Source: Methanomicrobiales archaeon | GTDB lineage: Archaea; Halobacteriota; Methanomicrobia; Methanomicrobiales; Methanospirillaceae | DNA: 53,116 nucleotides | Direction: 5' to 3' | NCBI GenBank assembly: GCA_025350045.1 | Contig: JANXYM010000039.1 | Coordinates: 1 to 53,116 of the forward strand | Shown here: in pieces, positions 35,246 through 53,116 of the stretch | Layout: the number at the start of each line of letters is the position of its first letter | How positions within the stretch are numbered: the first letter of the stretch is position 1 | Notes under the pieces: model-generated | Database searches by the model: none | What the model saw: the letters and a program-made list of their open reading frames with translations, nothing else | What the model was told of the DNA's origin: nothing | Program-made: the position numbers and the translations under genes

Positions 35246-36532
35246 ATGAAAAAAGCGGTTCTGCAAGTGGCACTGGATCTTCTGGAATTAAAAAGGGCTT
35301 TGCAGATCGCCCAGGAATCTGTTGATGGTGGTGCAGACTGGATTGAGGTCGGGACCCCGCTTATAAAAAGCGAAGGAATGTCTGCAATCCGATCGATGCG
35401 GGATCGCTTTCCAGATTCGGTGATTGTTGCCGATATGAAAATTGCCGATACAGGCACTCTTGAAGTGGAGATGGCTGCCAAAGCGGGTGCCAATATTGTA
35501 TGTGTCCTTGCGGATGCAGACGATGCGGTCATTGAAGAGGCTGTTCGGGCTGCTAGGCTGTACGGAATCCGGCTGATGGCGGATCTGATAAATGTCAGGG
35601 ATCCGGTGTCCCGGGCCTGCCAGCTTGAAGCAATGGGAATCGATATTCTCTGTGCTCATGTCGGCATTGACCAACAGATGACTGGGAGGAACTCGATTGA
35701 ACTCCTCGCAACTCTATCAGGGACTGTCCATATTCCTCTTGCAGTTGCAGGTGGAATCGATTCCGGGAGTGCCGGAGAGGCGGTGCAATATGGGGCAGAT
35801 ATTGTCATTGTGGGTGGAGGAATTGTTCGTTCGGCTGATGTTACCGGCTCAGCAAAAAAGATCCGTGCAGCAATGGACCATCCATCAATCAAATCTATGG
35901 AAAAAAAATCCGCGGACGAAGAAATTCGTTCCCTTTTAATGCAGGTGTCTGCACCCAATATAACCGATGCCATGCACCGCAAAGGGGCTATGACAGGGAT
36001 TTTTTCCGTATGCGGCAATGTGAAGATGGTGGGACGAGCGGTAACCGTCCAGACGCTAGCCGGGGACTGGGCAAAACCTGTAGAAGCCATCGATGTTGCC
36101 CGAAAGGAAGATGTGATCGTGATAAACAACGATGGATGTACGCATGTTGCCCCATGGGGAGAACTGGCTACCCTGAGTTGTGTGAAAAAAGGTATCTCCG
36201 GGGTAGTTATCGATGGGGCTGTAAGGGATGTTGATGATATCCGGGCAATGAAATTCCCCATTTTTGCAAAAGCAATCGTGCCAAATGCAGGAGAACCCAA
36301 AGGGTTCGGTGAGATCAACGCAGAAATCCTGTGTGCAGGACAGTATGTGAATCCGGGTGACTGGATCATTGGTGATGAAAGCGGCGTTGTGGTAATTCCT
36401 GCAAAGCGAGCGTATGAAGTGGCACGTAGGGCAATGGAAGTGAGGAAGAACGAAGAACGAATTCGGGAAGAGATCCGCAGAGGAAGCACACTTTCTGAAG
36501 TGGCAGAATTAATAAAGTGGGAAAAACAGTGA
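35246..36532 (+). CDS. Bifunctional hexulose-6-phosphate synthase / RraA-like protein
   Basis: A two-domain fusion of 428 residues. The N-terminal ~210 residues are a TIM-barrel of the OMP-decarboxylase superfamily (3-hexulose-6-phosphate synthase), with VALDLLELKRAL, the catalytic ADMKIADTG motif and AVAGGIDSG. The C-terminal ~200 residues are RraA/demethylmenaquinone methyltransferase-like (GRAVTVQTLAGDW, GVVIDGAVRDVDDIR). In archaea lacking an oxidative pentose pathway, HPS makes ribulose-5-phosphate from hexulose phosphate. The role of the RraA-like half is unclear. The start is ATG 35246; an in-frame TTG lies two codons upstream. Confidence 0.9.
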   Translation: MKKAVLQVALDLLELKRALQIAQESVDGGADWIEVGTPLIKSEGMSAIRSMRDRFPDSVIVADMKIADTGTLEVEMAAKAGANIVCVLADADDAVIEEAVRAARLYGIRLMADLINVRDPVSRACQLEAMGIDILCAHVGIDQQMTGRNSIELLATLSGTVHIPLAVAGGIDSGSAGEAVQYGADIVIVGGGIVRSADVTGSAKKIRAAMDHPSIKSMEKKSADEEIRSLLMQVSAPNITDAMHRKGAMTGIFSVCGNVKMVGRAVTVQTLAGDWAKPVEAIDVARKEDVIVINNDGCTHVAPWGELATLSCVKKGISGVVIDGAVRDVDDIRAMKFPIFAKAIVPNAGEPKGFGEINAEILCAGQYVNPGDWIIGDESGVVVIPAKRAYEVARRAMEVRKNEERIREEIRRGSTLSEVAELIKWEKQ

Positions 36533-36539
36533 TGCAAGA

Positions 36540-36974
36540 TCAGTGGAACACACTTCGTTCCAGAAGCGTTGCACCAGAATTTTTGATCTTTTTTATAGCT
36601 TCTTCAACCAAATCAACCCGAAGGATGAGTACTGCACCTTCTTTTCCGGAATAGGCATAGGAATATTCGATATTTATCCCCGCATCCCCCAGAATTTTTG
36701 CCACTTCATAGAGACCTCCTGGTTGATCTTTCATGTGCACTGCGATCACATCGGTAAATGCAATGTTGAATCCCAGTGAAAGCAGTTTGTCATGTGCTTT
36801 TTCCGGGTGATCTACCAGTGCTCTCACTACGCCAAAACCATTTGCCTCTGCGATGCTGAATGCAAGGATGTTGATCTTCTCCTCTCCAAGGGCATGAGCA
36901 ATAGCTGCGAGCCTGCCCGGGCGGTTTTCAGAGAATATCGAAATCTGTTTGATCACATATTTTTTCGTGTCCAT
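36540..36974 (-). CDS. Tandem ACT-domain protein
   Basis: A 144-residue protein made of two ACT domains: QISIFSENRPGRLAAIAHAL at the N-terminus and HMKDQPGGLYEVAKILGDAG in the second half. ACT domains bind amino acids or similar ligands and regulate partner enzymes. It abuts paaK (TAAATG), so it most likely senses an aromatic amino acid or a related metabolite for the two CoA ligases upstream in the operon. The ligand is an inference. Confidence 0.86.
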   Translation of the reverse strand: MDTKKYVIKQISIFSENRPGRLAAIAHALGEEKINILAFSIAEANGFGVVRALVDHPEKAHDKLLSLGFNIAFTDVIAVHMKDQPGGLYEVAKILGDAGINIEYSYAYSGKEGAVLILRVDLVEEAIKKIKNSGATLLERSVFH

Positions 36975-38273
36975 TTACATCGACCTCTTATCGATTACCT
37001 TCTTTGATTTACCCTCAAATCTGGGTAATGAGCCCGGTTCGACTAGTTCGATATCTACATTCACATTCAAAGAATTCCTGAGCCGGTGTTCAAGCTTCTG
37101 CCGTACCTGCATAAGATCATTGATTTTATCACTGAATGATTCCTTATTCAGTTCGACCCGAACAAGCATGTCGTCAAGAGCTCCTTTTCGTGTAACCACG
37201 ATCTGGAAATGCTCCCCAACCTCAGGAATTGCCATCAGTGCATATTCAATCTGCGATGGGAAGACATTGATGCCCCTGATAATCAACATGTCATCGACCC
37301 TTCCCTGAATCCGCTGGATCCTCGGGTGAGTTCTGCCACAAGCACAAATGTCTTCCTCCATCGTGGTAATATCCCCGATGCGGTACCGTATCATAGGGAG
37401 GGCTTCTTTCTGCAGGATGGTGATGGTGAGTTCACCCTTTTCTTCGGCTTCCAGTGATTCTCCGGTCTTGGGATCGATAATCTCCACCAATGCGATATCT
37501 GACCAGATGTGGAATCCTTTTTGTTCGGCACATTCAGTAAACATGGGCCCGGACAATTCGGAGGTGCCATAGATATCATAGGCCCTGATACCCAGCCATT
37601 CCTGGATGCGGTTGCGCATCCCCTCAGTCCATGGTTCAGCACCCAAAATTCCGGTACGCAGCAGAGTATCTTTTTTGATGTTAATTCCCATCTTCTCTGC
37701 AACTTCTCCTATATGGAGGAGATAGGAAGGCGTGCAAGCAATGGCTGTAGCTCCAAGATCTTGCATCAGTTCGATCTGGCGCTCTGTGTTCCCCACGCTG
37801 GTAGGAAGTACCGTTGCCCCAATGCGCTCGGCGCCATAATGCATACCGAGTCCTCCGGTGAACAGGCCATATCCATAACTTACCTGGATTACATCGCCCC
37901 TGCCGAGTCCGGCAGAGGTGAGACCCCGGGCAAGCGATGTTGTCCAGTTGTTTAAATCGTTTTGTGTATAACCAACAACCGTTGGTTTTCCTGTAGTTCC
38001 CGAAGACACGTGATAACGGACGAGTTCGTCTTTGGTTGCAGTGAAGATCTTATCCGGATAATTATCCCGCAAATCACGCTTGAACATGAACGGGAGTTTT
38101 TGCACATCAGAAAGTTTACGGATGTCATCCGGGTGGACTTTCTGCTCTTTCATCCGGTCATGATAAAATGGAGAGAAACTGTACAATCGGTACACCAGAC
38201 TTTTTAGCAGTTTGTACTGCATGCGCTGGAGATCTTCCCGGGGCATTTCTTCAATTCGTGGATCCCATCTCAT
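36975..38273 (-). CDS. paaK: Phenylacetate-CoA ligase family protein (first copy)
   Basis: A 432-residue AMP-forming CoA ligase. The ATP-binding P-loop is seen as YHVSSGTTGKPTVVGYT, followed by YGTSELSGPMF and a C-terminal RIQGRVDDMLIIRGINVFP motif. It probably activates phenylacetate, indoleacetate or another arylacetate. In methanogens such ligases can reverse the indolepyruvate oxidoreductase pathway to salvage aryl acids into aromatic amino acids. It is in the operon paaK2-paaK1-ACT, with start and stop codons abutting. Confidence 0.9.
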   Translation of the reverse strand: MRWDPRIEEMPREDLQRMQYKLLKSLVYRLYSFSPFYHDRMKEQKVHPDDIRKLSDVQKLPFMFKRDLRDNYPDKIFTATKDELVRYHVSSGTTGKPTVVGYTQNDLNNWTTSLARGLTSAGLGRGDVIQVSYGYGLFTGGLGMHYGAERIGATVLPTSVGNTERQIELMQDLGATAIACTPSYLLHIGEVAEKMGINIKKDTLLRTGILGAEPWTEGMRNRIQEWLGIRAYDIYGTSELSGPMFTECAEQKGFHIWSDIALVEIIDPKTGESLEAEEKGELTITILQKEALPMIRYRIGDITTMEEDICACGRTHPRIQRIQGRVDDMLIIRGINVFPSQIEYALMAIPEVGEHFQIVVTRKGALDDMLVRVELNKESFSDKINDLMQVRQKLEHRLRNSLNVNVDIELVEPGSLPRFEGKSKKVIDKRSM

Positions 38274-39563
38274 TCAAATCGTCTCCCTTCGGTCAATTAC
38301 TCGCTTCGCCTTTCCTTCAAAACGAGGTAATGATCCCGGCTCCACGAGCCTGACGGTTGTTCGCAGCTCCAGAGAATCGCGAAGTTCTTTTCCTACTTTT
38401 TTCTGGATATTAGCCAGATCCGTGAGTTCGCCACTGAAAAAGTCTCTGTTAATCTCGACTTCGACAGTCATTTCGTCTAGATGATTAATTCTGTCGATAT
38501 ATACCATAAACTGATTGCCGACTTCAGGGATCTTAAGAAGCACATGTTCTATCTGGGATGGGAAGACATTGATGCCGCGGATGACCAGCATATCATCGCT
38601 TCTTCCGGTGATTCTGGCGATCTTCTGCGCTCTTTTACATAGGCAGCCGTCTTTCATCAGCATCGTGACATCCCCGGTGCGATATCGCAGGAGTGGCATT
38701 GCTTCTTTGACCAGCGGAGTCACTACCAACTCACCCCGCTCTCCATCAGAAACACGCTCTCCGGTATTTGGATCTATGATTTCGACAAGATATGAATCGT
38801 GCCAGATATGAAGCCCATCTCGTTCTTTACATTCGAATGCAACACCCGGGCCGAAGAGCTCACTCAGGCCGTATGAATCGTATGCAGTCACTCCTAATCG
38901 CTTTTCAAGAGTATGCCGTACACTTTCAGACCAAGGCTCAGCTCCGAAAATTCCTGTTTTGAGACTATCGAGGGATTCACCCATCTCTTCTGCAACTTCT
39001 GAAAGATGCATGGCATAACTTGGTGTGCAATGGATTGTCGTCACGCCAAAATCCCGTATCATCTCGATCTGGCGTTTGGTATTTCCGGTAGCGCTGGGAA
39101 TAACCGTCATACCAATTTTTTCTGCACCATAGTGGAAACCCAGCCCTCCAGTGAACATGCCATAGTTGACCATGTTCTGGAAAATATCCTCTTTTCCAAC
39201 CCCAACCATGGTCATATTGCGTGCAATCAGGTCTGCCCAAACATCTAGGTCTTTTTTAGTATATCCCACGACAGTAGGTTTCCCTGTTGTTCCCGATGTC
39301 GTATGGATGCGGACGATCTCTTTTAAAGGAACTGCGAACAATCCAAATGGATATCCGTCACGAAGATCCTGCTTTTTGGTAAAGGGTATTTTCTGGATGT
39401 CATCCAGTGTTTTTATCGATGATGTGGTGACTCCTGCATCAGACAAACGTTTTTTGAAAAAACCAACTTTTTGTGCCTGACTGATCGTTTTCTTCAAACG
39501 TTTGAGCTGAAGTGACTGTAATTCATCAGTTTTCAGGGTTTCAATCTTCTTATCCCAGAACAT
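38274..39563 (-). CDS. paaK: Phenylacetate-CoA ligase family protein (second copy)
   Basis: A 429-residue homologue of the adjacent ligase, with HTTSGTTGKPTVVGYT, YGLSELFGPGVAFEC and ARITGRSDDMLVIRGINVFP. The two differ along their length, so this is an old duplication with likely different aryl-acid preference. It is the first gene of the three-gene operon (abutting TGAATG with the next ligase). Proteins begin nearly identically in design: W-D-x-x-I-E-x-x-x and a long charged helix. Confidence 0.9.
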   Translation of the reverse strand: MFWDKKIETLKTDELQSLQLKRLKKTISQAQKVGFFKKRLSDAGVTTSSIKTLDDIQKIPFTKKQDLRDGYPFGLFAVPLKEIVRIHTTSGTTGKPTVVGYTKKDLDVWADLIARNMTMVGVGKEDIFQNMVNYGMFTGGLGFHYGAEKIGMTVIPSATGNTKRQIEMIRDFGVTTIHCTPSYAMHLSEVAEEMGESLDSLKTGIFGAEPWSESVRHTLEKRLGVTAYDSYGLSELFGPGVAFECKERDGLHIWHDSYLVEIIDPNTGERVSDGERGELVVTPLVKEAMPLLRYRTGDVTMLMKDGCLCKRAQKIARITGRSDDMLVIRGINVFPSQIEHVLLKIPEVGNQFMVYIDRINHLDEMTVEVEINRDFFSGELTDLANIQKKVGKELRDSLELRTTVRLVEPGSLPRFEGKAKRVIDRRETI

Positions 39564-39783
39564 CTCTGACCTCTGTTATGCTATCGCATGACAAAATATG
39601 TTCTGGCTACGGTATATATCCACCGAAATATCCGGTGGCTTTATCCAATGTCTGTTGGTAGGATACGGATAATAAGTAAAAATGACTTTGAGTATGCCCA
39701 TTCTGAAGAGAAAAAACGAGGTTTTTTTTTAAAAAAAAAGGACTTTGCATTACATAAAGAAGCAACCAAAGGAGATCAATTGT

Positions 39784-40785
39784 TCACGTTTGAAAAATAT
39801 GATAACTGGATTTGATCAAGGAGATTCTTCTATTGATCAATGATTTTTTTGCTCTGTAGAAACCCTCAATCCATACAAATTGTATGAACCTGTCAAGGTT
39901 AGCGAGAATGATCTTACAAGAGATTTCCTTCTTCTGGATCTGGAATAAACGGGATTTGAGATCCGCCCCGAACCTTCTTTTCAAGATAGAGAATTTGGTT
40001 TCGACCAGGAAGCGTTTACAATACCGGACAAAGTCAAAATTATCGGTCATCTCCTTTCGATATTTTCTCCAGACATTCGTGGTGCCCTGATGTGTCCGAG
40101 CGGGAATAATCGAATCCGCTTTAAGAGTTTCACGGATAAATCGGTGCATTTTTTCCGAGTCATATCCCCGGTCCATGATATAACACTCAGATTTTCGTGT
40201 TTTTTGAAATTTCTTCAGAAGTATGAACGCGTGTTTTGAGTCGTGAACCCGGCTTTTTGAGATCGTGAATCCGGTAATTACCTGCATATCGGTATCAAGA
40301 GAAATCGATGTTTTCAGGAAGTATTTTCGGATTTTTCCGGTTCTTTCAGAGTAATAACGACTACAGTACCCGCTGGTAAAACCGGATGAATCGATGGCGG
40401 TGATAGAGAGCATATCGTCATCCGAATAGAATTGTTTCAGGGTTTTTTCAAAAGGAGATTGAAATATAGGGGTTTGATACGACATAGAAATTTTTGGAGG
40501 GTTGTGAAATGGGGAATAGCTGTGTGACCTAGTTCTGCCCGGATACGATCTTTTCTTCAAGGTTCAGATGACTGTGCGGTAGTCTTCTTTTCGATATTCT
40601 TTGAACAGAAGTAGTGTCAATAGCTGATGTTGGGTGTAATCCTTTCTCGAATATTTACAGGAATACGGAGTGAGTCGGGTTGACTGGACAAGGGAATATG
40701 CATGTTTGATAAAACTGATAAACCGGCATGACGATTTCTCTATTGTCTCCTTATTCGTTACTAGCATAACATTGTAAGGAGACAC
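39784..40785 (-). pseudogene. Frameshifted IS5-type DDE transposase
   Basis: The N-terminal part (40785-40564) encodes CRFISFIKHAYSLVQSTRLT and KDYTQHQLLTLLLFKEYRKE, then stops at a TGA. The +1-shifted frame then reads DRIRAELGHTAIPHFTTLQK. Near 40490 the frame returns to a long open stretch with DSSGFTSGYCSRYYSERTGK, DRGYDSEKMHRFIRE and the ET in FLVETKFSILKRRFG, which fit DDE transposases of the IS4/IS5 group. So at least two frameshifts separate the halves. The open frame also runs past the terminal inverted repeat into flanking DNA. It is therefore a dead copy. Confidence 0.85.
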
Positions 40786-40857
40786 CGTTCCTTAGATCTT
40801 TCGGTTGTTTTTTACTAGGTCTCTTCGATAGGAAATCATTTCTACAGAGCAGAAATT
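39845..40857. mobile_element. Degraded IS5-like insertion sequence with inverted repeats
   Basis: The transposase remnant is bounded by inverted repeats: GCTCTGTAGAAA at 39851-39862 and its complement TTTCTACAGAGC at 40839-40850, extended a few bases outward by T/A runs. The interval of about 1.0 kb fits an IS5-type element. I cannot see a clear target-site duplication because both flanks are A/T runs. The element lies between the paaK operon and the orphan cas1 gene. Confidence 0.75.
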
Positions 40858-41000
40858 TTTAAGCAGGTTTTGCCAAGAAAATGCGTCTTGACCCTTAGCA
40901 ATCTTGATTTCTCTTAATATTCCTAAAAATGTACAACGATGAATTAATCTGTCAAAATGTGGTAGTAATTATCTGAATTGTGTTGCATCATACGGGGTTT

Positions 41001-41933
41001 ATGGAAACTGATTATCCTTGGTTGTCGGTAAGTGGGTTTGGCTCTCATATCAAATCGACAAAGACAAAGTTAATTGTCCAGAGCAAAAACAGCGTTGAAG
41101 AATACCCTATTGAATCGATAAAAAATCTCCTCGTTGTTGGTGGACATACGATAAGTTCGGCAACTATTTCCCAGCTAATAAAAAAGGGTGCAGTAATCTC
41201 GTTTTTTGAGCCTGATGGCAATCCAATTGGGATTATTAGCCCATTTGGCTACCATAGTGATCCGGCGTTTTATCAAGCCCAGCAAAACGTATCACGCCAT
41301 CGTTATGCGATAGCAATTGCTCAGGGGGCATTGAAGTCACGCCTCGTTGCCATCAACCGCCTGCAGGAGAAGCAGAATATATTGCTCTTTTATGAAGGGG
41401 AGTCGGATTTCCTTCACAAATCCTTAGAAGAAATGGCATACTTGATCAAACTCGATGAAGTCCGTCGGCTTCACCGTATGACTTCTGATATGTATTATGA
41501 GATTATGTCGCGTAATACCAAGCCAGATCTTGGATATCGAAGACGGACATTGCGCCCTCAGACTGATCCTGTCAATGCAATGCTCTCATTTGGTTATGCA
41601 ATGCTGTTTGGCAATTGTTGTGTCTCAGTAATTGGGGCGAGACTGGATCCGGATATTGGCCTGTTGCATGAAGGTAATGGCTGTCTGGTAAGTGATATTG
41701 GGGAAGCGCTGAAATCTGAAATGATCGATGAAGCAGTTTTTAGAATTGCACGAGAGTCCATAAAACCTGCTGATTTTGAACTCACCCATGACAGATGTAT
41801 GCTCTCCGATGAATTTGTCAGAAATCTCATTAAAACATTTCATGATACGATAAATAACAAGGAAATTGATGAACTGGTATTCAGTTTCTCGAATGCAATA
41901 AAAAATAATGGAGAATTTAAAGCCCTGTACTAA
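41001..41933 (+). CDS. Orphan Cas1 homologue (solo Cas1) with altered active site
   Basis: A 310-residue protein of the Cas1 endonuclease/integrase family. The N-terminal beta domain (PIESIKNLLVVGGHTISSAT) is followed by the helical catalytic domain containing RRRTLRPQTDPVNAMLSFGY, GLLHEGNG and SDIGEAL. By alignment with A. fulgidus-type Cas1, the second and third metal ligands are kept (His223, Asp232), but the first ligand (Glu in the IEG-x-x-R-x-x-YY motif) is His158 (LHRMTSDMYY). No CRISPR array, cas2 or other cas gene, and no PolB of a casposon, is in the window. An in-frame GTG start seven codons upstream is possible; ATG 41001 follows GGGG. It ends by overlapping the convergent acylphosphatase by 17 nt. 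Confidence 0.85.
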   Translation: METDYPWLSVSGFGSHIKSTKTKLIVQSKNSVEEYPIESIKNLLVVGGHTISSATISQLIKKGAVISFFEPDGNPIGIISPFGYHSDPAFYQAQQNVSRHRYAIAIAQGALKSRLVAINRLQEKQNILLFYEGESDFLHKSLEEMAYLIKLDEVRRLHRMTSDMYYEIMSRNTKPDLGYRRRTLRPQTDPVNAMLSFGYAMLFGNCCVSVIGARLDPDIGLLHEGNGCLVSDIGEALKSEMIDEAVFRIARESIKPADFELTHDRCMLSDEFVRNLIKTFHDTINNKEIDELVFSFSNAIKNNGEFKALY

Positions 41934-42210
41934 TACGTCCTTCTCCTTTGATAATAGAAAAATCGTCAAAGTGTTTTAATGCGATTTCCGATTGTCGGAG
42001 GTCCCGGATTACTGCTCGGGGACAACCATACACCATTGATACAAATTTCTCTAGAATCATCAGTTCACCGGTTGCATAAATGTGAACTCTTCCGTCAGGA
42101 AGATTCATGACTGTTCCGCTTACCTTTAAATCGGTGGCGATTCGTCGAATGCATGCTCTAAATCCTACTTTCTGGACCCTACCCGTGATGAAAATTTCTA
42201 TTGTTTTCAC
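41917..42210 (-). CDS. acyP: Acylphosphatase
   Basis: A 97-residue ferredoxin-fold enzyme hydrolysing acyl phosphates. The motif ITGRVQKVGFRACIRRIA carries the catalytic Arg, and LKVSGTVMNLPDGRVHIYA carries the conserved Asn-x-x-x-G. It begins with GTG (42210), two bases after the solenoid gene's stop, so it is the downstream member of a two-gene operon. Its 3' end overlaps the end of the convergent cas1 gene. A housekeeping role is likely, but the company is unusual. Confidence 0.9.
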   Translation of the reverse strand: MKTIEIFITGRVQKVGFRACIRRIATDLKVSGTVMNLPDGRVHIYATGELMILEKFVSMVYGCPRAVIRDLRQSEIALKHFDDFSIIKGEGRISTGL

Positions 42211-42212
42211 CG

Positions 42213-45200
42213 TCAGATCTCCTGCATAATTTTTATCGCAAGCCCGAGTTCATCGAAGACTTCTTCACGTAATGTTGACTGGCGGATATTTGTCGCTGCA
42301 TCGATGGCGCAATCAAGTACTTCCTGAGCTGCGCTTTCACAACCCGCAGCATGGCTCTTCATTGCAATATCACACATAACAAAAGCCCTTCGGGAAAGGG
42401 GCCGGATTATCCTCGCCTCTTTTATCGCACTTTGCATCATGCGTTTTGAGAGTTTTCCATTGCCCTCCCTTCTGAAAAGAATTGAAAGGTTACAGAAAAA
42501 GGTTGCTTCTTTTCCACGATCAGCAACTGAACGGATAAGACGTTCAAGTGACGCGATCTGATTGGGGTGAGCTCCATCATCAATAATTTTTTCCGACATT
42601 GCTTTGATTTTGGAATATTGAGGGGGAATCTCATAGGTATCTTTTTGCCCCAATTGCTTGAGACGGTGAAGTCTTAACCCATCATCGTCAATGGTTCTAG
42701 TTGTGTCGATTGCGAAGTTGAGGTATTTCTCATTATGTCGCGTTGCGTAAAGCATTGAATATACCTGAGCAACATTGTCACGGATTGTATCTGCAATATA
42801 TTGAATGTTTATTTTTTTTGTTAGTGCATCTGCCTTTTTTAGTAAAGGCATAAACGCATCATCTTTACTACATTGCAGTGCGAGGGGGGTAATCTCCAGA
42901 AGGATCGATGCCCTTTCATAGGGAGAGGGTATTTTTTCTGCAGCTTCTTCCATCAAAGTGAGTAATTCAGTACTGTGATCATTATTATCGCTTGCCATCC
43001 GAGATATTGCAATGAGTGAATTGATGTAATCGATCGGCTCTTTGATTTTGGATACAATATTGAATGCAATACTGACTAAGGAATTGTCGGGTGTGGTTGT
43101 ATTAAGGCTGACGATTGCATAAACAATCTGCCTTCTGGCTATCGCGCTATTGGGGAATTCTACGGCATTGAGAATTTGAATCCCTTCATCAAGGCATTTT
43201 CTTGCCATTTTCTGATCAATATGGCAAAATAATGTGGCCAGATCCGCTAAAACCATCACTTTTTGAGATACTGTGGGAAGATGTTTCAATGAATCAAAAA
43301 CTTCTTTGAGAATTTCAGATGAACGTTCCGGATCACTTGATTTATACGACGAATCGGCAAGATTTAACAATCCAGTGAGTCGGTTGTAAGGATCCTGTAT
43401 CAAAAGGAGGATGCGGTATGTTAGATTGATAATAACCAGATTTGATCGTGCCTGTTCATCTCTTAAAAGAAGGTATGCCATAATTTCATAGGGATCTGTT
43501 GAACCCGGAAGAGGTGTATCATCGTTGAGGTTTGAGATAATTCTGGATACCATCGCATCCCGTTCTAATGAATTGGCGATCTCAACTGAGTACATAGCGA
43601 GAGGGATAATAAAATCCGGATTATCGCTCGTTTTAGAGTAAGAGATAACGACATCAATTAATCCAGCAATCTTAAGGGAGATCTGGGATGTTTTAACACT
43701 TTTATTAATTATCTCCAGAGCACGTTCGAATGGAGATACCGCAACTGATAACTCTTGAATTTGCGATTGAAGCTTCGGTTCTATGAGTAGAATACATCCT
43801 ATTTTAATAAAATACTCAACAATATGTTCGAATAATTGTTCTTTTAATATGGGATCATCGATTTCTTGTGCGATCAGATACGCTTTTTCGAGTGCATCAG
43901 ATGATCGGTTATCAATTGCATATTTTAGTACACCTTCAATGATGGTTGCCATTGCGAACGTAGCCAGTTCTTTTTGAAGAAGGGAATGGCTCCATTCTTT
44001 CATCCGTAACAGGAGATCCAGATCTCCCTGCTGAGCTGCAAGGATTGCCGCTTCATCAATAATCCTGCTCAACGTGGCAGATCTGGTGTTCTGTCCATCA
44101 ATCTGACAGGTAAGGCCGACAGCTCTTTGAAGTAAATCACGGTTCTTTGTCAGTACTCCCATTTGGGCAATTTTTATTACAATATTTGAGATAGCTCGTT
44201 CTTTTAATGGTAATTCTTTGATAGAATCCGCAAGTTTAATCAGAATACTCGGTTCATGGGAATTGAGGAACCCCCTGTCCACAAGAAGAGTTATGCAATC
44301 GAGGAAGAGTGTATCCCGTCGCGGATGTAATAAAATCAGTTCTTTCATGGAATTAATATGTACGACAATCTCATCGAATGAAGCATCCTTGGAAATTTCA
44401 ATGATTGCCCGGGAAATCGCATTATGAGAAATTTCTGCAGGTAACTTATGGAGAGTTGAACTGTTTATTTTCTCTATACTATTCTTTTTCACTCCAGTAA
44501 TCAGGAGGTAGGTTAAGCAATCAGTATAGGCTGAAATATTTTCTGATTCATGATTGACTTTTTCAAATATTGTGAGCGATGATTCGAAATTTCCCGAACT
44601 AATCATAATCTGCGAAAACTGAAGATAGATATGTGATAAATACACGGTATTACAGTTTTTCTCAATAAGGGGTATCAGATCAGAAAGCACTTTTATTTCG
44701 TTTGAGTGACGGGCAACCGAAATACCGGCTTTAATTATCTCCCGTATTGGGTATTTATCAGGATTCGAAATAATCTGTTGAAGTTTCATTGCAGATTCGA
44801 AATACCAAATATCTCCAGATTTATCCGCTTTCATGAGAAGATCAATGACAAGGGTTCCCGTAACAAAGGGCAGGGAATAACAGAGGGACTGAAGAACTTT
44901 GTCGATCTGTTTTTTATCCTTTTCACGCTCGAGGAGCTGATCTATCATAGCACTGATAATCTCAAGCTGCTTTTCAGAATTAATATCCTTAAAGTTGCTT
45001 ATAAATACTGCAATATCGGACAGATCTCTGGAAAAATGAGATTTTACCCCTTTCTCAATAATTGAATTTACACAGTTCTGTCTGCGAATTTTCTGGGGGA
45101 TATCAGTCGCAATTATGAGACTCTCAAGAAATAATGGGCGATTTTTTTCTAAAATTGCTATTGTCGCAATTGCTTTTGCAAGTTCAGAATGAAGGACAGC

Positions 45201-45770
45201 ACGTTTTGAGATATCGCTGATATCTTTTATGAGATTAAGTGAAGTACGGAGACGTTTTTCATCACGCGTTGTGATAGCCCACACAATCAACAGGGGAATG
45301 ATATCAATCATAATATCAGATCGGTATTTACGGAAGCTGATACGATCGAGCATAATCATACCCTGTTCGATAAATGATGGATCGGAAAGAGAAACTCCTT
45401 TTTCAATGAGATCCAGTGCCATCGATGCAAACACGCGTGACTGATAACTTTTTTTACCTAATAAATCGGACAGAAAAAAAAGTGATTTTAACCAAGCATC
45501 ATCCTTTGTATTGATGAAATTAGAAAGAATGACAGAGAAGAAATCTTCCATTTCATTACTTGGAATATCGGGAATGGCGTAAAGGATAGCCGGCCTGTTT
45601 GCTTTGATAGCTGTATCCACGAGAAGATGGTTAATATCTGAGACAATTGTTTTTCTGGCATGTCGTCCCCGATTCAGATCCAGATCATCAATACTATTCT
45701 TAACTACTTTCCAATCCTCTGGTGATAGCACCTGCTGAATATTATCGATTATTTCGGTGGGTTTAACCAT
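42213..45770 (-). CDS. Giant alpha-solenoid repeat protein of unknown function
   Basis: A 1185-residue cytoplasmic-looking protein without a signal peptide, membrane helix or catalytic motif that I can see. Most of it consists of degenerate helical repeats of about 35-40 residues with a pattern such as ALEKAYLIAQEIDDPILKEQ and ALTKKINIQYIADTIRD; units typically show a hydrophobic helix, an I-x-D turn and an A-x-x-L-x-x-I-A helix. This resembles TPR/HEAT-like scaffolds. The C-terminal third is better conserved in pattern (CNLSILFRREGNGKLSKRMM, CDIAMKSHAAGCESAAQEVL). It precedes the acylphosphatase by 2 nt and points toward cas1. A binding platform is likely; the partner is unknown. Confidence 0.85.
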   Translation of the reverse strand: MVKPTEIIDNIQQVLSPEDWKVVKNSIDDLDLNRGRHARKTIVSDINHLLVDTAIKANRPAILYAIPDIPSNEMEDFFSVILSNFINTKDDAWLKSLFFLSDLLGKKSYQSRVFASMALDLIEKGVSLSDPSFIEQGMIMLDRISFRKYRSDIMIDIIPLLIVWAITTRDEKRLRTSLNLIKDISDISKRAVLHSELAKAIATIAILEKNRPLFLESLIIATDIPQKIRRQNCVNSIIEKGVKSHFSRDLSDIAVFISNFKDINSEKQLEIISAMIDQLLEREKDKKQIDKVLQSLCYSLPFVTGTLVIDLLMKADKSGDIWYFESAMKLQQIISNPDKYPIREIIKAGISVARHSNEIKVLSDLIPLIEKNCNTVYLSHIYLQFSQIMISSGNFESSLTIFEKVNHESENISAYTDCLTYLLITGVKKNSIEKINSSTLHKLPAEISHNAISRAIIEISKDASFDEIVVHINSMKELILLHPRRDTLFLDCITLLVDRGFLNSHEPSILIKLADSIKELPLKERAISNIVIKIAQMGVLTKNRDLLQRAVGLTCQIDGQNTRSATLSRIIDEAAILAAQQGDLDLLLRMKEWSHSLLQKELATFAMATIIEGVLKYAIDNRSSDALEKAYLIAQEIDDPILKEQLFEHIVEYFIKIGCILLIEPKLQSQIQELSVAVSPFERALEIINKSVKTSQISLKIAGLIDVVISYSKTSDNPDFIIPLAMYSVEIANSLERDAMVSRIISNLNDDTPLPGSTDPYEIMAYLLLRDEQARSNLVIINLTYRILLLIQDPYNRLTGLLNLADSSYKSSDPERSSEILKEVFDSLKHLPTVSQKVMVLADLATLFCHIDQKMARKCLDEGIQILNAVEFPNSAIARRQIVYAIVSLNTTTPDNSLVSIAFNIVSKIKEPIDYINSLIAISRMASDNNDHSTELLTLMEEAAEKIPSPYERASILLEITPLALQCSKDDAFMPLLKKADALTKKINIQYIADTIRDNVAQVYSMLYATRHNEKYLNFAIDTTRTIDDDGLRLHRLKQLGQKDTYEIPPQYSKIKAMSEKIIDDGAHPNQIASLERLIRSVADRGKEATFFCNLSILFRREGNGKLSKRMMQSAIKEARIIRPLSRRAFVMCDIAMKSHAAGCESAAQEVLDCAIDAATNIRQSTLREEVFDELGLAIKIMQEI

Positions 45771-46052
45771 TATTAATTTCCCATTTACAGAAATTCAGGT
45801 TATTTATCTCAATTTGACCAAATTAGTTAATAAACTTTATTATTTTATTTACGCATAATTTTATATTTTTTTTGAATACTAAAGCAAATTCATCGGTTTT
45901 TTACCCGATATCTCAATAATTCGACCTTCATTTTAAAGAAACTACAATATTTTCAATTATTCCCTTATTTTACAAAAAAATCCCCTTTTTTTGATAATTA
46001 CACGCTGTACTACAAAAAATCTTTTGTTAGTTTTTTTGCTTCAGGACCGGTT

Positions 46053-47414
46053 TCAAGTAACTTTCTGGATCGTCTCCATAAGTTCATCCAAGAGTGTCCT
46101 GCCATGCTCTTCATCTTCTGCATCAATGATTATCCTGATCAGGGGTTCTGTTCCTGATGCTCGCACCAGAGCCCATGAGTTACCCTGAAAAATTTTTACT
46201 CCATCTCTTTCATCTGTGATCCCATGAGAATATGCAGATTTGAGCGCATCGAGTATTGCCGGCCCTCTGGCCGCAGAGATCTTATTTTTCTTCATGTGTC
46301 GTTTGGGTAATTGTGCTAATAACCGCGATAATTTCTGTCTGCGTGAAGCAAGAATTGCTACCATCATTGCAGCGGTCATACCCCCGTCACGGCAGAACTG
46401 ATGGTCTGGGAAGATAAGTCCACCGTTTCCCTCACCTCCAAAAATTACAGGGTGTCCCGAATCAATAAGCGACCTCATCGTGCGGGCAACATAGATGCTC
46501 CCGACAGGTGTGTAGGTTACCGTACAGTCGTTCTTTTTTGCTATGATCTCAATCATCTGTGAGGTACTGACAGGAGTAACAATTACACCTTTTTTCTGGC
46601 GACAGATATGGTCTGTAACAAGCGCAAACTCCTGGTTTTCCTCAACAAATTGTCCATTTTCATCAATGAACACTGCACGATCTGCATCACCATCGTGAGC
46701 AACACCAAATTCAGCGCCACTGCTCACAACAAGATCCGCTAATTCTTTCAATCCATCTGGGGAGGGTTCGGGAAGTCTTCCGGGAAATGTACCATCCATC
46801 ACTCCATTGATCGTCAGTACTCTGCAACCTAAACGTGTTAGAATCTGGGGTGTTGTTGCACAGGCAGGACCTGAACCCGGGTCCACAACAACGGTAATTC
46901 CCATCCCTGGTTTGTCGGGAAAAAGATTAGCAATTGCAGTGATATAGTGTTCGATGAGATAGGGTGCAATGGTTTCCTTTCCAATGTGTTCCCAGGATTT
47001 TGGGGAATAGGACTGATCGAATATCCTTTGTTCGAGTTTGAGGGTTTCTTCATCTCCCATTTCGGTTCCATCAGATTCGATGATTTTTACACCGTTATAT
47101 TCCGGAGGATTATGTGATGCGGTGATCATCGCCCCGCCATCAAAATGATCCTTCACCAGGTACTGGAGTGCTGGTGTTGGAAGTATGCCACAGTCTGTTA
47201 CATCGCATCCTACTGCTAGGAGACCCGATTTAACTGCATTGATGAGTGTTTCACCGCTGGTTCTCGTATCTCTGCCAACAGCAATCCGACCTTTTCTCAT
47301 AGTTCCAAAAGCTTCTCCAATAGAAAGGACAAGTTCAGGTGTCAAATCTTTTCCGACAATCCCTCTTACACCATTGGTACCGAACAATCGTTTCTGGATC
47401 TTTTTTGTTTCCAT
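46053..47414 (-). CDS. glmM: Phosphoglucosamine mutase / phosphohexomutase, GlmM type
   Basis: A 453-residue alpha-D-phosphohexomutase that interconverts hexosamine 6- and 1-phosphates, or phosphomannose, toward UDP-GlcNAc or GDP-Man. The N-terminus LFGTNGVRGIVGKDLTPEL, phosphoserine loop ITASHNPPEYNG, Mg loop HDGDADRAVF and sugar loop GGEGNGGLIFP are complete. C-terminal phosphate binding is seen in RASGTEPLIRIII. The archaeal substrate (glucosamine versus mannose) cannot be fixed here. It follows mobB by 22 nt. Confidence 0.93.
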   Translation of the reverse strand: METKKIQKRLFGTNGVRGIVGKDLTPELVLSIGEAFGTMRKGRIAVGRDTRTSGETLINAVKSGLLAVGCDVTDCGILPTPALQYLVKDHFDGGAMITASHNPPEYNGVKIIESDGTEMGDEETLKLEQRIFDQSYSPKSWEHIGKETIAPYLIEHYITAIANLFPDKPGMGITVVVDPGSGPACATTPQILTRLGCRVLTINGVMDGTFPGRLPEPSPDGLKELADLVVSSGAEFGVAHDGDADRAVFIDENGQFVEENQEFALVTDHICRQKKGVIVTPVSTSQMIEIIAKKNDCTVTYTPVGSIYVARTMRSLIDSGHPVIFGGEGNGGLIFPDHQFCRDGGMTAAMMVAILASRRQKLSRLLAQLPKRHMKKNKISAARGPAILDALKSAYSHGITDERDGVKIFQGNSWALVRASGTEPLIRIIIDAEDEEHGRTLLDELMETIQKVT

Positions 47415-47436
47415 GTTTTCCTACTCCTGCAACGTT

Positions 47437-47853
47437 TTAAGGACAAAAATCTTCAAAAGCATTGAGTGATGCAAGGACTTCATCAGGACAAGGATTGTTA
47501 AGAATACAGTAGTCCGTCTGGAGATCGCCGATAACAATTCTGGGAAATGCTTTCTGTTTGAATCCTTCGATAATGGTAAAATTCATACCTTGGTCAAAAA
47601 GTAGCCGTAACGCGCTCTCTAATGAGTTGTTACGTATCGCAGCTACTGATTTATCTGCATCGATTCCTACTGAAATATCAGCACCAACATCAAAAAAACC
47701 GGTAGTATCTTTTCCTTCTTCAAGTTCATAGTCATGGTCTCCGAGGTGTTTGATAACAGCAACGCGCCCTTGTGTTTTGAGTTTAGGGATAAGCTGTTTG
47801 ATAAATGTGGTTTTACCGGAATTTGATCTACCCACAACCTGAATTATTTTCAT
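47437..47853 (-). CDS. mobB: Molybdopterin-guanine dinucleotide biosynthesis protein B
   Basis: A 138-residue P-loop GTPase that assists delivery of the guanine dinucleotide form of molybdopterin or tungstopterin to oxidoreductases such as formate or formylmethanofuran dehydrogenase. The P-loop is VVGRSNSGKTTFIKQLI; a Walker B-like IIEGFKQKAFPRIVI lies in the C-terminal half. It starts in an ATGA overlap with the upstream gene. Confidence 0.92.
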   Translation of the reverse strand: MKIIQVVGRSNSGKTTFIKQLIPKLKTQGRVAVIKHLGDHDYELEEGKDTTGFFDVGADISVGIDADKSVAAIRNNSLESALRLLFDQGMNFTIIEGFKQKAFPRIVIGDLQTDYCILNNPCPDEVLASLNAFEDFCP

Positions 47854-48746
47854 GGGGTTCTGTCTCCTGTAATTTCAAGTTCATCATTATTGGGATTTTT
47901 TTCTTTTATCGTTTCTTCTTTAACGGATACCATAATGGGGGTTGTGGGTAGATGGGAAATGCTTTCTGGCGCACGAATAATTGGTACTGTAGCACTTGAC
48001 GGTATTTTTACGATTGAGACGGTCACGCCTTGTGTAGCTGATGATTCTGTAATTATTGGAATAACTTCTACAGTTTCAGATGGTTCAGATCCACAGGGGG
48101 GATTCTTTGAAGTATCCATGATGCTTTTTTTCTTAATTTTTTTTATTTTTTGCGGATTGGAAATATCCGTTTCTATAGGACCCGGTATATTTTTGGGTAT
48201 ACCTTGCCCTTTGCTTTGAGATATGTTTCCTGCTCCGCTCTCTTCTCCTCTTGTGCGAAGTATTGTTTTTGCAGCTTCCCCTACACTTCTCATGACTTGG
48301 GTGATTCGATCCTCAATATCAATCTCTTCATCAATATCCAGAGTTGTCCCTTCAACTTCAAGTAAAAATCGTGCGACTTCACTTGCTTCAAAGAGCAGAT
48401 CATCAAGTTCGTCAGTGGTGAAGAACCCGCACATAGCCCCATAAAAAAAAGTTGCGCTAGATTTCCGTACCTTTTTTTTAAAGGAATTTCGTGCCTGGTT
48501 CACTGCTTGGGGGGTGTAGGTATCCTCCATAAAGGGGACGAGTTCCGGCAGATGGTTTCCAATAAAAGTCATTTCAGCTCCGCCAGATGTGCGGAAATCT
48601 GTGCATAAACGTGCGAGTGCCCATTCCCTTGCAGTGATGTACGTTCTCTTGCGTAAAAACTGGTTTACTTTACGATATGTTGCACCATCAACTTTCTTAA
48701 ATTTTTTATATTTATTGATCTCCTGCTGGATGTTTGCGCTGTCCAT
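47850..48746 (-). CDS. DUF5806-like protein with disordered tail
   Basis: A 298-residue protein. The N-terminal ~150 residues (KKFKKVDGATYRKVNQFLRK, ITAREWALARLCTDFRTSGG, LPELVPFMEDTYTPQAVNQA, FYGAMCGFFTTDELDDLLFE) match a domain known from haloarchaea as DUF5806. The C-terminal ~130 residues are Ser/Pro/Thr/Lys-rich and look disordered, with a basic patch KIKKIKKKS. The function is unknown. A GAGGTG Shine-Dalgarno (48753-48760) precedes the ATG. It is first in an operon with mobB (ATGA overlap) and glmM. Confidence 0.75.
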   Translation of the reverse strand: MDSANIQQEINKYKKFKKVDGATYRKVNQFLRKRTYITAREWALARLCTDFRTSGGAEMTFIGNHLPELVPFMEDTYTPQAVNQARNSFKKKVRKSSATFFYGAMCGFFTTDELDDLLFEASEVARFLLEVEGTTLDIDEEIDIEDRITQVMRSVGEAAKTILRTRGEESGAGNISQSKGQGIPKNIPGPIETDISNPQKIKKIKKKSIMDTSKNPPCGSEPSETVEVIPIITESSATQGVTVSIVKIPSSATVPIIRAPESISHLPTTPIMVSVKEETIKEKNPNNDELEITGDRTP

Positions 48747-48823
48747 TATCGTACACCTCTAAATAATTGGTCTATCCCGATTTGGGAACCCTCTCCAAGA
48801 TATTGTTGATTATTTGGTCGCTT

Positions 48824-48832
48824 TATTTATAG
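48824..48832 (-). promoter_or_regulatory. TATA box for the DUF5806-mobB-glmM operon
   Basis: The minus strand reads CTATAAATA within a palindromic GCTATAAATAAAGC, about 80 nt before the start at 48746. Both strands of this palindrome resemble a TATA element. Confidence 0.4.
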
Positions 48833-49980
48833 CATTATGTGGTTTATTGTTTGCCTGCACTACGTCGGGGGGTGATGTGGTAATCGGTCAATTAGAGGTG
48901 CAAAATCGAATAGATTTAAAAAAAAATCACGCATTGGGTTTTTCCTATCTCGCGTCTATCGGATCGTTGCGAGTCTTTTTTGGGTTATTTCTACTATTGC
49001 AGGTGCATTAACATGCTCGCAATTTTTAGGAATTTGATAAATTTTCTTTTGAATACAAGAAATTCCGGGTTGGGATTTGAATGGTCGGTCTGTCATAATT
49101 TTTTGGTGAAAACTATCGACAATTTGTAGTTTTGGAACCTGATTGAAAAGTTACGTAACTATTCCTAATTTGCCTGAAACACTGCTGAATATATTGAGAT
49201 ATTGGTTAGAAGTGATGTTTTTCACTCTATAAATCATATCGAGATTCGCCGGATTGTTTATCCCTATACTCTGCACATAGGGAATTTCTGCTGATCTTTC
49301 ACATTGTCCTATCTTTAGATTATTTTTATATTCGAGTGACACGGGTATCCCTCATTGGTTTTTGCTTGTATCACTGCCTGATAGCACCGGTCTGTAAGTA
49401 AAACGGTTCATTTAAGGAAGTTCAGATGTATGTCTTCCATAACTGCTTTTATTCATGATATGTTTACGTTTTTTTCTTTGAATTGTCAGGGTAAATTAGT
49501 AACCGGGTATTGGAAACCGTCATAAATTTCTCTTTTGGATATAGCATCATATGGTTTATTTAAACGCGGTGTGGGTTATTTGAAAAATTTTCAAAATGCT
49601 TAAAATGGATTCTATTTTAGATAAAAATCCTATGGTGGAGGTTTTTAATACATTTCTGCAGGTATGTTTTTTACATTGATTATTATTAATTCTGGTTTTA
49701 ATTAGTTTCTGAAATCACAGAAGTCCGAATCACTTCTCTCAAAATGACTTTGCAGGTTTCATTATTCAGATAACGAGTAGAGCTGGATGGTTGAGGAACA
49801 AGAGAAGTGCCCTCGCCCTCATTCGTCCTTTGTGTTTTCTGATGGTGTTATAATTATGTGTTTGTCGTAACCCCGCCGTTCGAGAGGGTAAAAATCCGTA
49901 AGGATTCCTTTATTTTGGACATTTCTGCAAACCGGTAATAATTATTTTCCTAGTTTGGTAAATTCACAATGGCAACTGTC

Positions 49981-50000
49981 TTATTTTATTTTATTTTATT
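49981..50000. repeat. Microsatellite, four copies of TTATT
   Basis: Four perfect TTATT pentamers in a row, followed by a T-run. This is a simple-sequence repeat within the gene-free region. Confidence 0.7.
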
Positions 50001-51236
50001 TTTTATCATGAACCTGTTTTTTTCCGTAGGTTAACGGATTTGGTTTTTCCCAATATATCCTGGTGTATTTGATATGAGTATTCATGAACAATGGGCCTGA
50101 CCTTGTGGGTAAAAGCGACAAGGTACGTTTGATGAAATAAATCGCTTTTTATCCCAGTGTATCTCAAGTACAACTGATTTCTGACTGATGAAAATCATCA
50201 AAACATGGGGGAACCCTGGCGGCCTGTTGAAGGAGATTTTTTTCACTTAAAATGCCAGGAGAAAATGATCACTTTGAATCATATAAATATCCGTGGAATA
50301 AGGATTTTTTTGGCGCAAAGTAAAATCCCGACCGCGGAGCTTGCTGTATCAAAACTCCTTTAATTTTTGTGCAATTGAAGGTTGTTTCAAAGTATTCTTC
50401 CGTAGTATGGACTTTTTATTTGGATTAAGACAAAACCCCATTCCTGCGGAATATGGTTTCAACAACATTGTTTCAGCAGGATTTTGCGGGATTGTTAATA
50501 TTTTTCCATGGTTCATCTGATCTTTGTCACCAGTTTATAGATAAATGCAGACGATTTCGTGTGAATAGTGACTCACTTCTCAAATTTATATCTCAAATGG
50601 TCAACACTCTTCGTTGTGCATCCCTGCATGAAGAGGTAATAATAATTTACATCCAATTTCAGTAAATTGTCTATAAGAGAAAAGTAAAATGAACACTTAA
50701 TAATCAGAATTGCGGTCAAAACCAGAGAGGGTATAAATCCCGTTTGATCGTTAAAAATTGACCCTATATCAGAAAATTTCCCTGTACAATTATTTCTTAA
50801 GGTGTTCCGTATATTGTCCGCACTTTCAAATGCAAATTTGGGAATAATTTACAATACAACAGATGTACATGCAGGAAAAGTTATTATCTATTCACAATTT
50901 ATAAATTTTTCAAGGTAACCCACTTAAAAAAAAGAGAATATTTGTTGAAGGTGGATTTTGTTCAGTCATCAAAATGAACAAAAATTAAGGTTTTTTCAAA
51001 CCCTCTATTCTATATTTTAACGGATCCTTGAAAAGTGTTTTAACATAATTTAAATCTATATTGTTATGGTGAAGGCTTCATCGACGTTAGTTCTTTTCAG
51101 ATGGCAATAGCGGGCTTCTGGTCGATGATCTCATGTATGCTGGATGGTCTGTACCCTCACGCGGAAAAAAACCCCCCTTTTTGGGACAGGTGCCCTTTGA
51201 TATTTCTCCCTTGAATAGCGAGCGTAATAAAAAACA

Positions 51237-51244
51237 TTTATATG
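51237..51244 (+). promoter_or_regulatory. TATA box for a structured RNA candidate
   Basis: TTTATATG in AT-rich DNA immediately precedes a GC-richer segment. With usual archaeal spacing, transcription would start near 51265-51270. Confidence 0.4.
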
Positions 51245-51264
51245 GAACTATACCCATCAACGAT

Positions 51265-51420
51265 TAAGCACGCGATGATTTGAGCAGCGCCGGATTAATT
51301 ACCTGAAACTGTTCTGTGACCCGGCCTGGTCCAAGTAAAAGTAATTCGCTGCTCATGAACGCACCGTGCCAAAGGTGTTTGGAAGAGTACCGATTCCACG
51401 GAAAAAGAAGCAAATTTCCA
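51265..51420 (+). ncRNA. Candidate structured noncoding RNA upstream of the recombinase
   Basis: A GC-rich segment in an AT-rich gap, behind a TATA box. A 9-bp perfect stem TGAGCAGCG (51281-51289) pairs with CGCTGCTCA (51347-51355). An inner 6-bp stem AATTAC (51297-51302) pairs with GTAATT (51341-51346) directly adjacent on one side, leaving a 7-nt bulge on the other. A small GACC/GGTC hairpin lies inside. The 3' part has a second weaker helix, CCGTG/CACGG. I recognise no known RNA family; the GC contrast and stems are seen directly, transcription is inferred. Confidence 0.4.
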
Positions 51421-51423
51421 AAC

Positions 51424-51447
51424 TTCGCAGAATAGGTATTCTACGAA
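51424..51447. promoter_or_regulatory. Near-perfect dyad beside the recombinase promoter
   Basis: TTCGCAGAAT and ATTCTACGAA are inverted repeats matching at 9 of 10 positions with a 4-nt spacer AGGT. The dyad ends four bases before the TATA box region of the recombinase gene. It could be an operator or a recombinase-binding site. Confidence 0.55.
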
Positions 51448-51451
51448 AACC

Positions 51452-51459
51452 TTTATTTA
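51452..51459 (+). promoter_or_regulatory. TATA box for the tyrosine recombinase
   Basis: TTTATTTA lies 24-31 nt before the ATG at 51483, so the message is predicted to be leaderless. Confidence 0.5.
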
Positions 51460-51482
51460 TACGAGATAAGATAGAATAGAGC

Positions 51483-52403
51483 ATGGAAAGCGGGTATTTT
51501 TCGGAATGGCTCAAAAGCTACCGGAACTATCTGCGGATGCGCAATTACTCCCCCCGCACTCTTGACAGTTATGAGCAGGTGATCAAACACTTTGCATATT
51601 ATGTCTGGCTTCGCAGGAATACTGAAAAGACCAAACTTGTCATTTATTGGAAGGATTTTGAGAATGCCCGTCTTGATACTGGTGTAGAAGTAACTCCTCT
51701 CATTGTCACAGATTTCCTCTCGTTTGTCTCGTCAATGCAAACGTATAAGCCGAAAACGTTTCATCGGATTATCTCGACCTTGAGTTCTTTTTATCGCTTC
51801 CTCTATACCCAAGGAGCAGTCAGTACAAATCCCCTTACGGGTATTGAACGACCAAGAATTAAACAACAGGAAGTAAAATACCTCAAACATAACCAGGTGC
51901 TCAGGCTGATCGATTCAATAGATGATCAACGTGACAAACTCATTGTTCGGACCATATATGCCACAGGTGTCCGTGTATCAGAACTGTGCGAAATGAATAT
52001 TGAAGAGATTGATTTTGATGAGCACACAATCCGAATCCGGGGTAAAGGGGATAAGATCCGGATTGTCTTTGTTGATGATGACACTCTTGCTGATATTCTA
52101 AAATTTATAGGTAACCGGATCGTTGGTCCTCTTTTTATTGGTCAACAGGGGAAGCATATATCCCCTCGTGCTATTCAGCATATTTTCAAGCATTATGCTC
52201 CTGCAGGTATTACACCTCATAAGATACGTCATAGTTATGCAAGCGAACTCTATAAACGCTCAAAGAATCTTCGGGTTGTTCAGGAAAATCTTGGTCATAC
52301 TTCAATTAAAACAACTGAGATCTATCTCCATACCGATATTGATGAGCGCCGGCAGGTCTACCAGCAATTTTTTCCTCTCTCTGGGAATAATGAGAAATTA
52401 TAA
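51483..52403 (+). CDS. Tyrosine recombinase (XerA/integrase family)
   Basis: A 306-residue site-specific recombinase. An N-terminal SAM-like DNA-binding domain (RNYSPRTLDSYEQVIKHFAY) is followed by the catalytic domain. All catalytic residues are present: Arg164 in TGVRVSEL, Lys188 in RGKGDK, His246 and Arg249 in HKIRHSY, His272 in LGHTS, and the Tyr281 nucleophile in TTEIYLHTD. The length matches both XerA-type dimer resolvases and small integrases. No neighbouring phage or plasmid genes are seen, so a chromosomal or element role stays open. It is flanked by gene-free AT-rich DNA and has a leaderless promoter. Confidence 0.9.
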   Translation: MESGYFSEWLKSYRNYLRMRNYSPRTLDSYEQVIKHFAYYVWLRRNTEKTKLVIYWKDFENARLDTGVEVTPLIVTDFLSFVSSMQTYKPKTFHRIISTLSSFYRFLYTQGAVSTNPLTGIERPRIKQQEVKYLKHNQVLRLIDSIDDQRDKLIVRTIYATGVRVSELCEMNIEEIDFDEHTIRIRGKGDKIRIVFVDDDTLADILKFIGNRIVGPLFIGQQGKHISPRAIQHIFKHYAPAGITPHKIRHSYASELYKRSKNLRVVQENLGHTSIKTTEIYLHTDIDERRQVYQQFFPLSGNNEKL

Positions 52404-53068
52404 AATTGCTTTCTGATTCTATCAATTTTTATGAAAAGTATCCTGCTCTGAAGACATTTTCAAGTAAATACGAAAAAATCATTAATAGAGATCATGGAAT
52501 AAAGCCTGTTCTCCCGACATACTTGAGATTTTTTATAGTGCCATGTTAGCGGTTCAGGAATTGATGCATTGTGATGGAGAAGTCATAATGGTTTGAAGTG
52601 AAAATTCCTGTAAGTATTCAGGTTTTGTGAGTATTGCAAAAAAATATGTTACGTTTTTATTGATCATTGATGAGTATACAAATTCTGGATATAGCTTTTC
52701 ATATGGATTAATTATCCTAAAATTCTTGTTGTTTTCGCGTTTAGTCGTTAAATCATGGATTATTTGGATTTTTTATACATTAGGTCGTCTCTTAATATAA
52801 ACCGTATGATGCTATATTATAGCGCATATCATTTTTTAATATGATCAATCAGTATGGATGACTTCAGTCCTTGATCATTTTATCATTGTTTTTTTCGATA
52901 ATTGAAAAGACGGTGAACCTGTTCAGGTATTTTAATAAAAAACTGAAATATTGTGGGGCAAGTTATGGTAATTAAATGTAACGTGCCAGTATTTCTGTCC
53001 TAAAATAGTGACATAATTTATGTCCGCTTTCAAGAGCACCAATCAGGTGCTTGCGGGTGAAAGCGACA
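52404..53068. other. Gene-free stretch with an insertion-sequence-like terminus
   Basis: This 660-nt AT-rich stretch shows no gene. Near its end, a perfect 7-bp palindrome GACATAATTTATGTC lies at 53009-53023. A GCTTTCA/TGAAAGC stem enclosing an AGCACC/GGTGCT hairpin follows (about 53027-53063), leading into the ribosome-binding site of the last gene. Confidence 0.45.
53009..53023. repeat. Palindrome GACATAA-T-TTATGTC
   Basis: A 15-nt perfect palindrome with 7-bp arms sits about 45 nt before the start of the terminal gene. Together with the preceding TGTCC and following TGTCC it resembles ends of IS21-like elements, although that assignment is tentative. Confidence 0.5.
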
Positions 53069-53116
53069 ATGGAAATCAGGACCAAAGCAGTTGTATTCTA
53101 TGAAGAAGGGATACGA
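53069..53116 (+). CDS. N-terminal fragment of an unidentified protein, cut by the window edge
   Basis: An ATG at 53069 opens a frame running off the right edge and encoding MEIRTKAVVFYEEGIR. GGGTGA about 8 nt upstream is a good ribosome-binding site. The start resembles HTH-leading transposase subunits (IstA-like) found in IS21 elements, and the upstream palindrome would suit an element end, but 16 residues cannot prove it. Confidence 0.5.
   Translation, partial: MEIRTKAVVFYEEGIR

Follow-up and report, generated by a model that had tools for sequence, protein, structure and literature searches.

The gene at positions 41001-41933 of the window, the whole 53,116-nt stretch of DNA analysed here, probably encodes a non-catalytic, vertically inherited Cas1-solo group 1 protein, most likely acting by binding and not by metal chemistry. 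Decay of its active site was accompanied by the gain of new fixed residues and of a private upstream element, and the solo Cas1 therefore appears to have been kept for a non-CRISPR job.

The gene and its surroundings

An uninterrupted open reading frame of 310 residues occupies 41001-41933 (+), with comparison to relatives favouring ATG at 41001 over GTG at 40980 as the start. A sequence-only reading of this DNA had described a Cas1-fold protein with His158 in place of the first catalytic Glu, and both points were confirmed. The protein matches Pfam Cas_Cas1 (E 7e-51) and TIGR00287 (E 3e-41), while its AlphaFold2 model (mean pLDDT 85.8) has Archaeoglobus Cas1 4n06 as the best solved-structure match for the predicted fold (Foldseek, E 8.5e-18, TM 0.71). 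His158 falls on the first catalytic Glu position in phmmer alignments to solved Cas1 chains, and again in a MAFFT alignment with 12 CRISPR Cas1 sequences from the same order. H223, D232 and E235 are retained, meaning that three of the four canonical active-site positions are kept, where that reading had counted two of three metal ligands. The features of the gene are as follows:

41001..41933, + strand: Cas1-solo group 1 protein, 310 aa, with Pfam, NCBIfam and Foldseek matches, in one clade with other solo orthologues (support 100/100)
41451..41513, + strand: helix 151-171; its solo-specific conserved polar face (E153/R156/D163/E167/R171) lies across from the former catalytic one
41472..41474, + strand: His158 codon, at the position of the first catalytic Glu in Cas1 alignments
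41667..41705, + strand: segment with H223, D232 and E235, the other three canonical active-site positions, of which D232 alone is invariant in the family

Comparison of the 41 main ORFs of the window with Pfam identified no other cas gene and no PolB, and no CRISPR array was found by searching for tandem repeats over the whole window and direct repeats within 36000-53116, in line with the initial impression of 53 kb free of cas genes, arrays and casposon polymerases. The solo cas1 is the sole Cas1 of its genome (95.9% complete), the whole of which yielded no Cas2. Hence neither the Cas2 partner (genome-wide) nor the CRISPR array (within the window) expected of an active Cas1 is present, and the window protein lacks the set of features that marks a casposase, namely PolB/HNH neighbours, a C-terminal extension and the catalytic quartet.

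Downstream, two genes are recurrent neighbours:

41917..42210, - strand: acylphosphatase, convergent, with a 17 bp overlap with the cas1 3' end; the commonest conserved neighbour (36/44 loci)
42213..45770, - strand: 1185-aa protein without a Pfam match, adjoining solo cas1 in 33/44 loci

A functional link through these neighbours was rejected, as both are conserved in position and neither forms an operon with cas1. The 1185-aa protein, found in 16 of the 109 sampled phylum genomes, all from the same order, is further weakened as a functional partner by its absence from several families there.

On the upstream side, tandem AMP-binding (phenylacetate-CoA-ligase-like) genes at 36975-39563 are oriented divergently to solo cas1 and are a conserved feature of Methanoregula. 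Between this CoA-ligase pair and solo cas1, at about 39630-40925, lies a degenerate DDE_Tnp_1 insertion sequence, consisting of two ORF pieces (39784-40560 and 40564-40785) with inverted repeats at 39846-39862 and 40839-40855, and ending roughly 10 bp short of the upstream element of cas1. Relatives L033 and L035 are without this insertion sequence, and three further partial copies occur in the window's genome. Near the window end, a tyrosine recombinase of the phage integrase family (51483-52403) is possibly the edge of an integrated element.

Distribution, inheritance and decay of the active site

Relatives of the solo Cas1 come from Methanoregula and other Methanomicrobiales. A profile built from 18 orthologues located the gene in 217 of 232 Methanomicrobiales genomes and in 133 of the 135 good-quality ones, these same 232 genomes of the order also making up the class as sampled. 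The two absences from good genomes look like assembly gaps, because in one (G134) the neighbouring gene lies no more than 2 bases from the end of its contig and in the other (G005) the neighbouring gene is missing too. In 296 genomes sampled across the phylum, solo matches were confined to the order, and a sharp gap separates solo proteins (E-values of 1e-84 or below) from everything else (1e-31 or above). Viral contigs gave no solo cas1 and, among the plasmid matches listed, there were only CRISPR-type Cas1 proteins below 30% identity. One contig titled Geobacter sp. UBA4074 (L045) has a Methanoregula-type solo cas1 locus and is likely mis-binned.

In a tree built from 24 solo sequences, 19 of CRISPR Cas1 and 2 of casposases, the last two taken from casposons of the same order, the solo set forms a single clade apart from both CRISPR Cas1 and casposases (support 100/100), and solo Cas1, with its conserved neighbouring genes, is inherited vertically within Methanomicrobiales. 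The window gene is a new member of Cas1-solo group 1, an assignment based on its taxon, its active site and the absence of a CRISPR context, the tree having held no sequence that publications assign to group 1. The sequence-only reading, which had noted CRISPR-independent Cas1 lineages in methanogens and proposed a tree including solo groups and casposases, was sound in this respect.

In 19 of 70 near-complete genomes, the window's included, the solo protein is the only Cas1, and its role therefore does not require CRISPR adaptation. These genomes weigh against a dominant-negative or accessory subunit acting on host CRISPR Cas1-Cas2 or casposases through mixed dimers, as does the lack of Cas2 in the window's genome. 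Retention of the Cas1 fold and of shared invariants would suit such a subunit, and many genomes of the order also have CRISPR Cas1 or casposons, but on balance this explanation is highly improbable.

The canonical active-site positions vary widely among the orthologues. In 102 sequences, position 158 is His in 58, Ser in 15, Phe in 10, Tyr in 6, Gln and Glu in 4 each, Asn and Ala in 2 each and Leu in 1; position 223 is His in 56 and otherwise Y, R, S, N, T, K, F or A; position 235 is Glu in 58, Asp in 36 and otherwise G, N or A. D232 is the only fixed member of the four. Plain parsimony counts on the tree give 18 changes at 158 (43rd percentile of all sites), 26 at 223 (63rd) and 15 at 235 (34th), and site rates on 63 sequences agree in placing all three at about the average. 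The quartet is incomplete in 104 of 105 orthologues, and the conserved E-H-D-E/D metal site of active Cas1 is thus lacking from the family. Glu158 is seen in seven of the 105 sequences, from three genera, and the full E-H-D-E in one orthologue (L146), a qualification of the published claim that every member lacks the full set. The three congeners of L146 have N, N and K at 223, so even a complete quartet looks like drift.

The idea that His158 serves as a substitute metal ligand finds no support in this variation, the position being occupied by H, S, F, Y, E, Q, N, A or L among the 105 distinct orthologues. An active metalloenzyme, with H158, H223, D232 and E235 binding metal and supporting nuclease or integrase activity in this lineage, is accordingly rated as very unlikely: H158+H223+D232+(E/D)235 is the commonest combination (35/105) and D232 is invariant, but positions 158 and 223 change about as often as the average site, and to residues as varied as S, F, Y, A, L, N, R and K. 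Activity may persist in a subset of orthologues, for which the sequences leave room, with H-H-D-E retained in 21/105 and E-H-D-E in L146.

While the metal site has decayed, the gene itself is under strong purifying selection, with dN/dS of 0.08-0.16 among close relatives. Random variation at 158 had been named as a sign of simple decay, which is true of the metal site but not of the gene, retained across the order at a dN/dS of about 0.1; the suggestion of a probably repurposed protein whose active site is altered is borne out. A decaying relic without function would explain the eroded active site, but is scarcely credible in view of that dN/dS, the 13 sites that are invariant across 102 sequences, the near-universal retention of the gene and its conserved upstream element.

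New constraint, charge change and the upstream element

The 13 invariant sites are G47, H49, Q94, E134, R156, Y165, Y166, E167, R171, D232, D243, R265 and C266. The CRISPR Cas1 sequences compared are likewise constant at Q94, Y165, D232 and D243, while H49, R156, Y166, E167, R171, R265 and C266 are fixed in the solo family and are not the CRISPR majority residue; at E134, likewise fixed in solo, the CRISPR residue is mixed. In this alignment, eight fixed solo residues thus differ from the CRISPR majority, a feature not found in the published accounts consulted. Along helix 151-171, the conserved side lies 26 degrees from residue 158 in CRISPR Cas1, on the catalytic face, and 193 degrees from it in solo Cas1. 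Each pattern alone reaches only about p 0.05 and the CRISPR-solo difference p 0.003, with 12 CRISPR sequences in the comparison. Constraint on the catalytic helix, as judged from these sequences, has moved to the opposite face, which was again not found in those accounts.

Charge differs as well. Median pI is 6.24 in solo against 8.90 in CRISPR Cas1, the CRISPR set being limited to 12 sequences, and wherever a genome has both proteins (12 genomes), the more acidic C-terminal domain is that of the solo protein. Relative to CRISPR Cas1, the protein has lost about 12 units of positive charge in this domain. The basic charge of CRISPR Cas1 has, by these calculated values, been lost in the solo family, and the accounts consulted were not found to mention it.

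A conserved element precedes the gene:

40933..40949, + strand: conserved element specific to this gene (consensus AAACGATGnnTTAATS), lying 66 nt upstream of the ATG, with the exact core AACGATGAATTAAT at 40935-40948

The exact core AACGATGAATTAAT is present as a single copy in the window's genome. When the upstream DNA is aligned, the block AAACGATGnnTTAATS stands out, in most cases 53-90 nt ahead of the start codon, in families with flanking DNA that does not align. Exact copies of the core CGATnnnTTnAT occur in 70 of 102 solo upstream regions versus 3 of 843 other genes, and of 314 genes whose upstream region is free, the 24 with a match are all solo cas1. Across 60 whole genomes the 12-base AACGATGnnTTAAT has 14 matches, 11 of them 53-90 nt before solo cas1, with about five for the reversed control. 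The element is thus essentially private to solo cas1, likewise a feature not found in the accounts consulted, although it is missing in some lineages, amounting to about a quarter of orthologues.

A common general promoter motif was rejected, as no other gene among the 314 free upstream regions has the element, and a start-stop mini-ORF (ATG-NNT-TAA) was rejected because one family lacks both the ATG and the stop. A search for RNA elements gave no convincing Rfam match. One of the three other exact genomic matches lies 31 nt before an ORF (L179), so that a promoter role for solo cas1 is possible, and the element may control expression of the gene.

Since the element is essentially private to solo cas1, its reader is probably dedicated to this gene. 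Solo Cas1 might itself bind AAACGATGnnTTAATS upstream of its own gene as a sequence-specific autoregulator, as its main function or part of it, although this is considered unlikely. Near-exclusivity of the element (11/14 exact matches in 60 genomes, one copy in the window's genome), the DNA-binding nature of the Cas1 fold and new conserved Arg residues at 155, 156, 171 and 265 speak for it. Against it stand the roughly 12 positive charge units lost from the C-terminal domain, the quarter of orthologues without the element, and the possibility that the element is an unusual core promoter or is read by another protein; the charge loss argues against strong general DNA binding, not against specific binding. 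It is similarly doubtful that a single conversion of a dead Cas1, in the common ancestor of the Methanomicrobiales, produced a sequence-specific DNA-binding regulator that reads one genomic site, the element upstream of its own gene, by means of new arginines around the former active site.

Under the preferred reading, that of a non-catalytic protein working by binding, a Cas1-fold protein would have been domesticated in the Methanomicrobiales ancestor and then passed on vertically, losing metal-dependent integrase or nuclease activity. Scaffold and D232 are retained, and the metal site is free to vary. The new conserved polar face (E153, R156, D163, E167 and R171, with R265/C266 and H49/E134) may be an interface, whose partner would be a protein, a nucleic acid or a second copy of solo Cas1, while the dedicated, gene-specific upstream element would drive solo cas1. 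The conserved face could instead reflect intramolecular salt bridges.

Relation to known Cas1 systems

Cas1-solo group 1, described by Makarova et al. (2013) as cited in PMC4046053, was reported as confined to Methanomicrobiales, without horizontal transfer and with no member having a full active site, and was set aside in 2014 once the active site proved incomplete (Krupovic et al., 2014; PMC4046053). No published function for the group was found in the literature. The family described here resembles it in restriction to Methanomicrobiales, absence of any sign of horizontal transfer, incomplete active site and location away from CRISPR loci. To this are added near-core status, drift at three of the four active-site positions, Glu158 in seven sequences from three genera, new fixed residues, the charge change and the gene-specific upstream element.

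Casposases (Cas1-solo group 2) are similar in having a Cas1 fold outside CRISPR, and casposons occur in the same order. Two casposon-like loci (L115 and L116) lie in Methanomicrobiales genomes, one in the window's genus; their Cas1 has a C-terminal extension, and PolB-, HNH- and HTH-like neighbours were named by eye from length and sequence. Casposases keep all four catalytic residues (PMC4046053). They reside in islands alongside PolB, often accompanied by HNH and HTH genes, family 2 having a C-terminal HTH, whereas the window protein has none of these and belongs to another clade.

CRISPR Cas1 of the same order shares with solo Cas1 the fold and the invariants G14, Q94, Y165, R182, P186, N192, Y199, D232 and D243, but in the 12 sequences compared it has, unlike solo Cas1, an invariant E-H-D-E and a basic C-terminal domain. 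A near-universal, strongly selected and catalytically decayed Cas1 represents a clear case of a CRISPR integrase turned to other cellular use, and its fixed residues, together with the single-copy upstream element, provide specific, cheap experimental handles on the function of the group.
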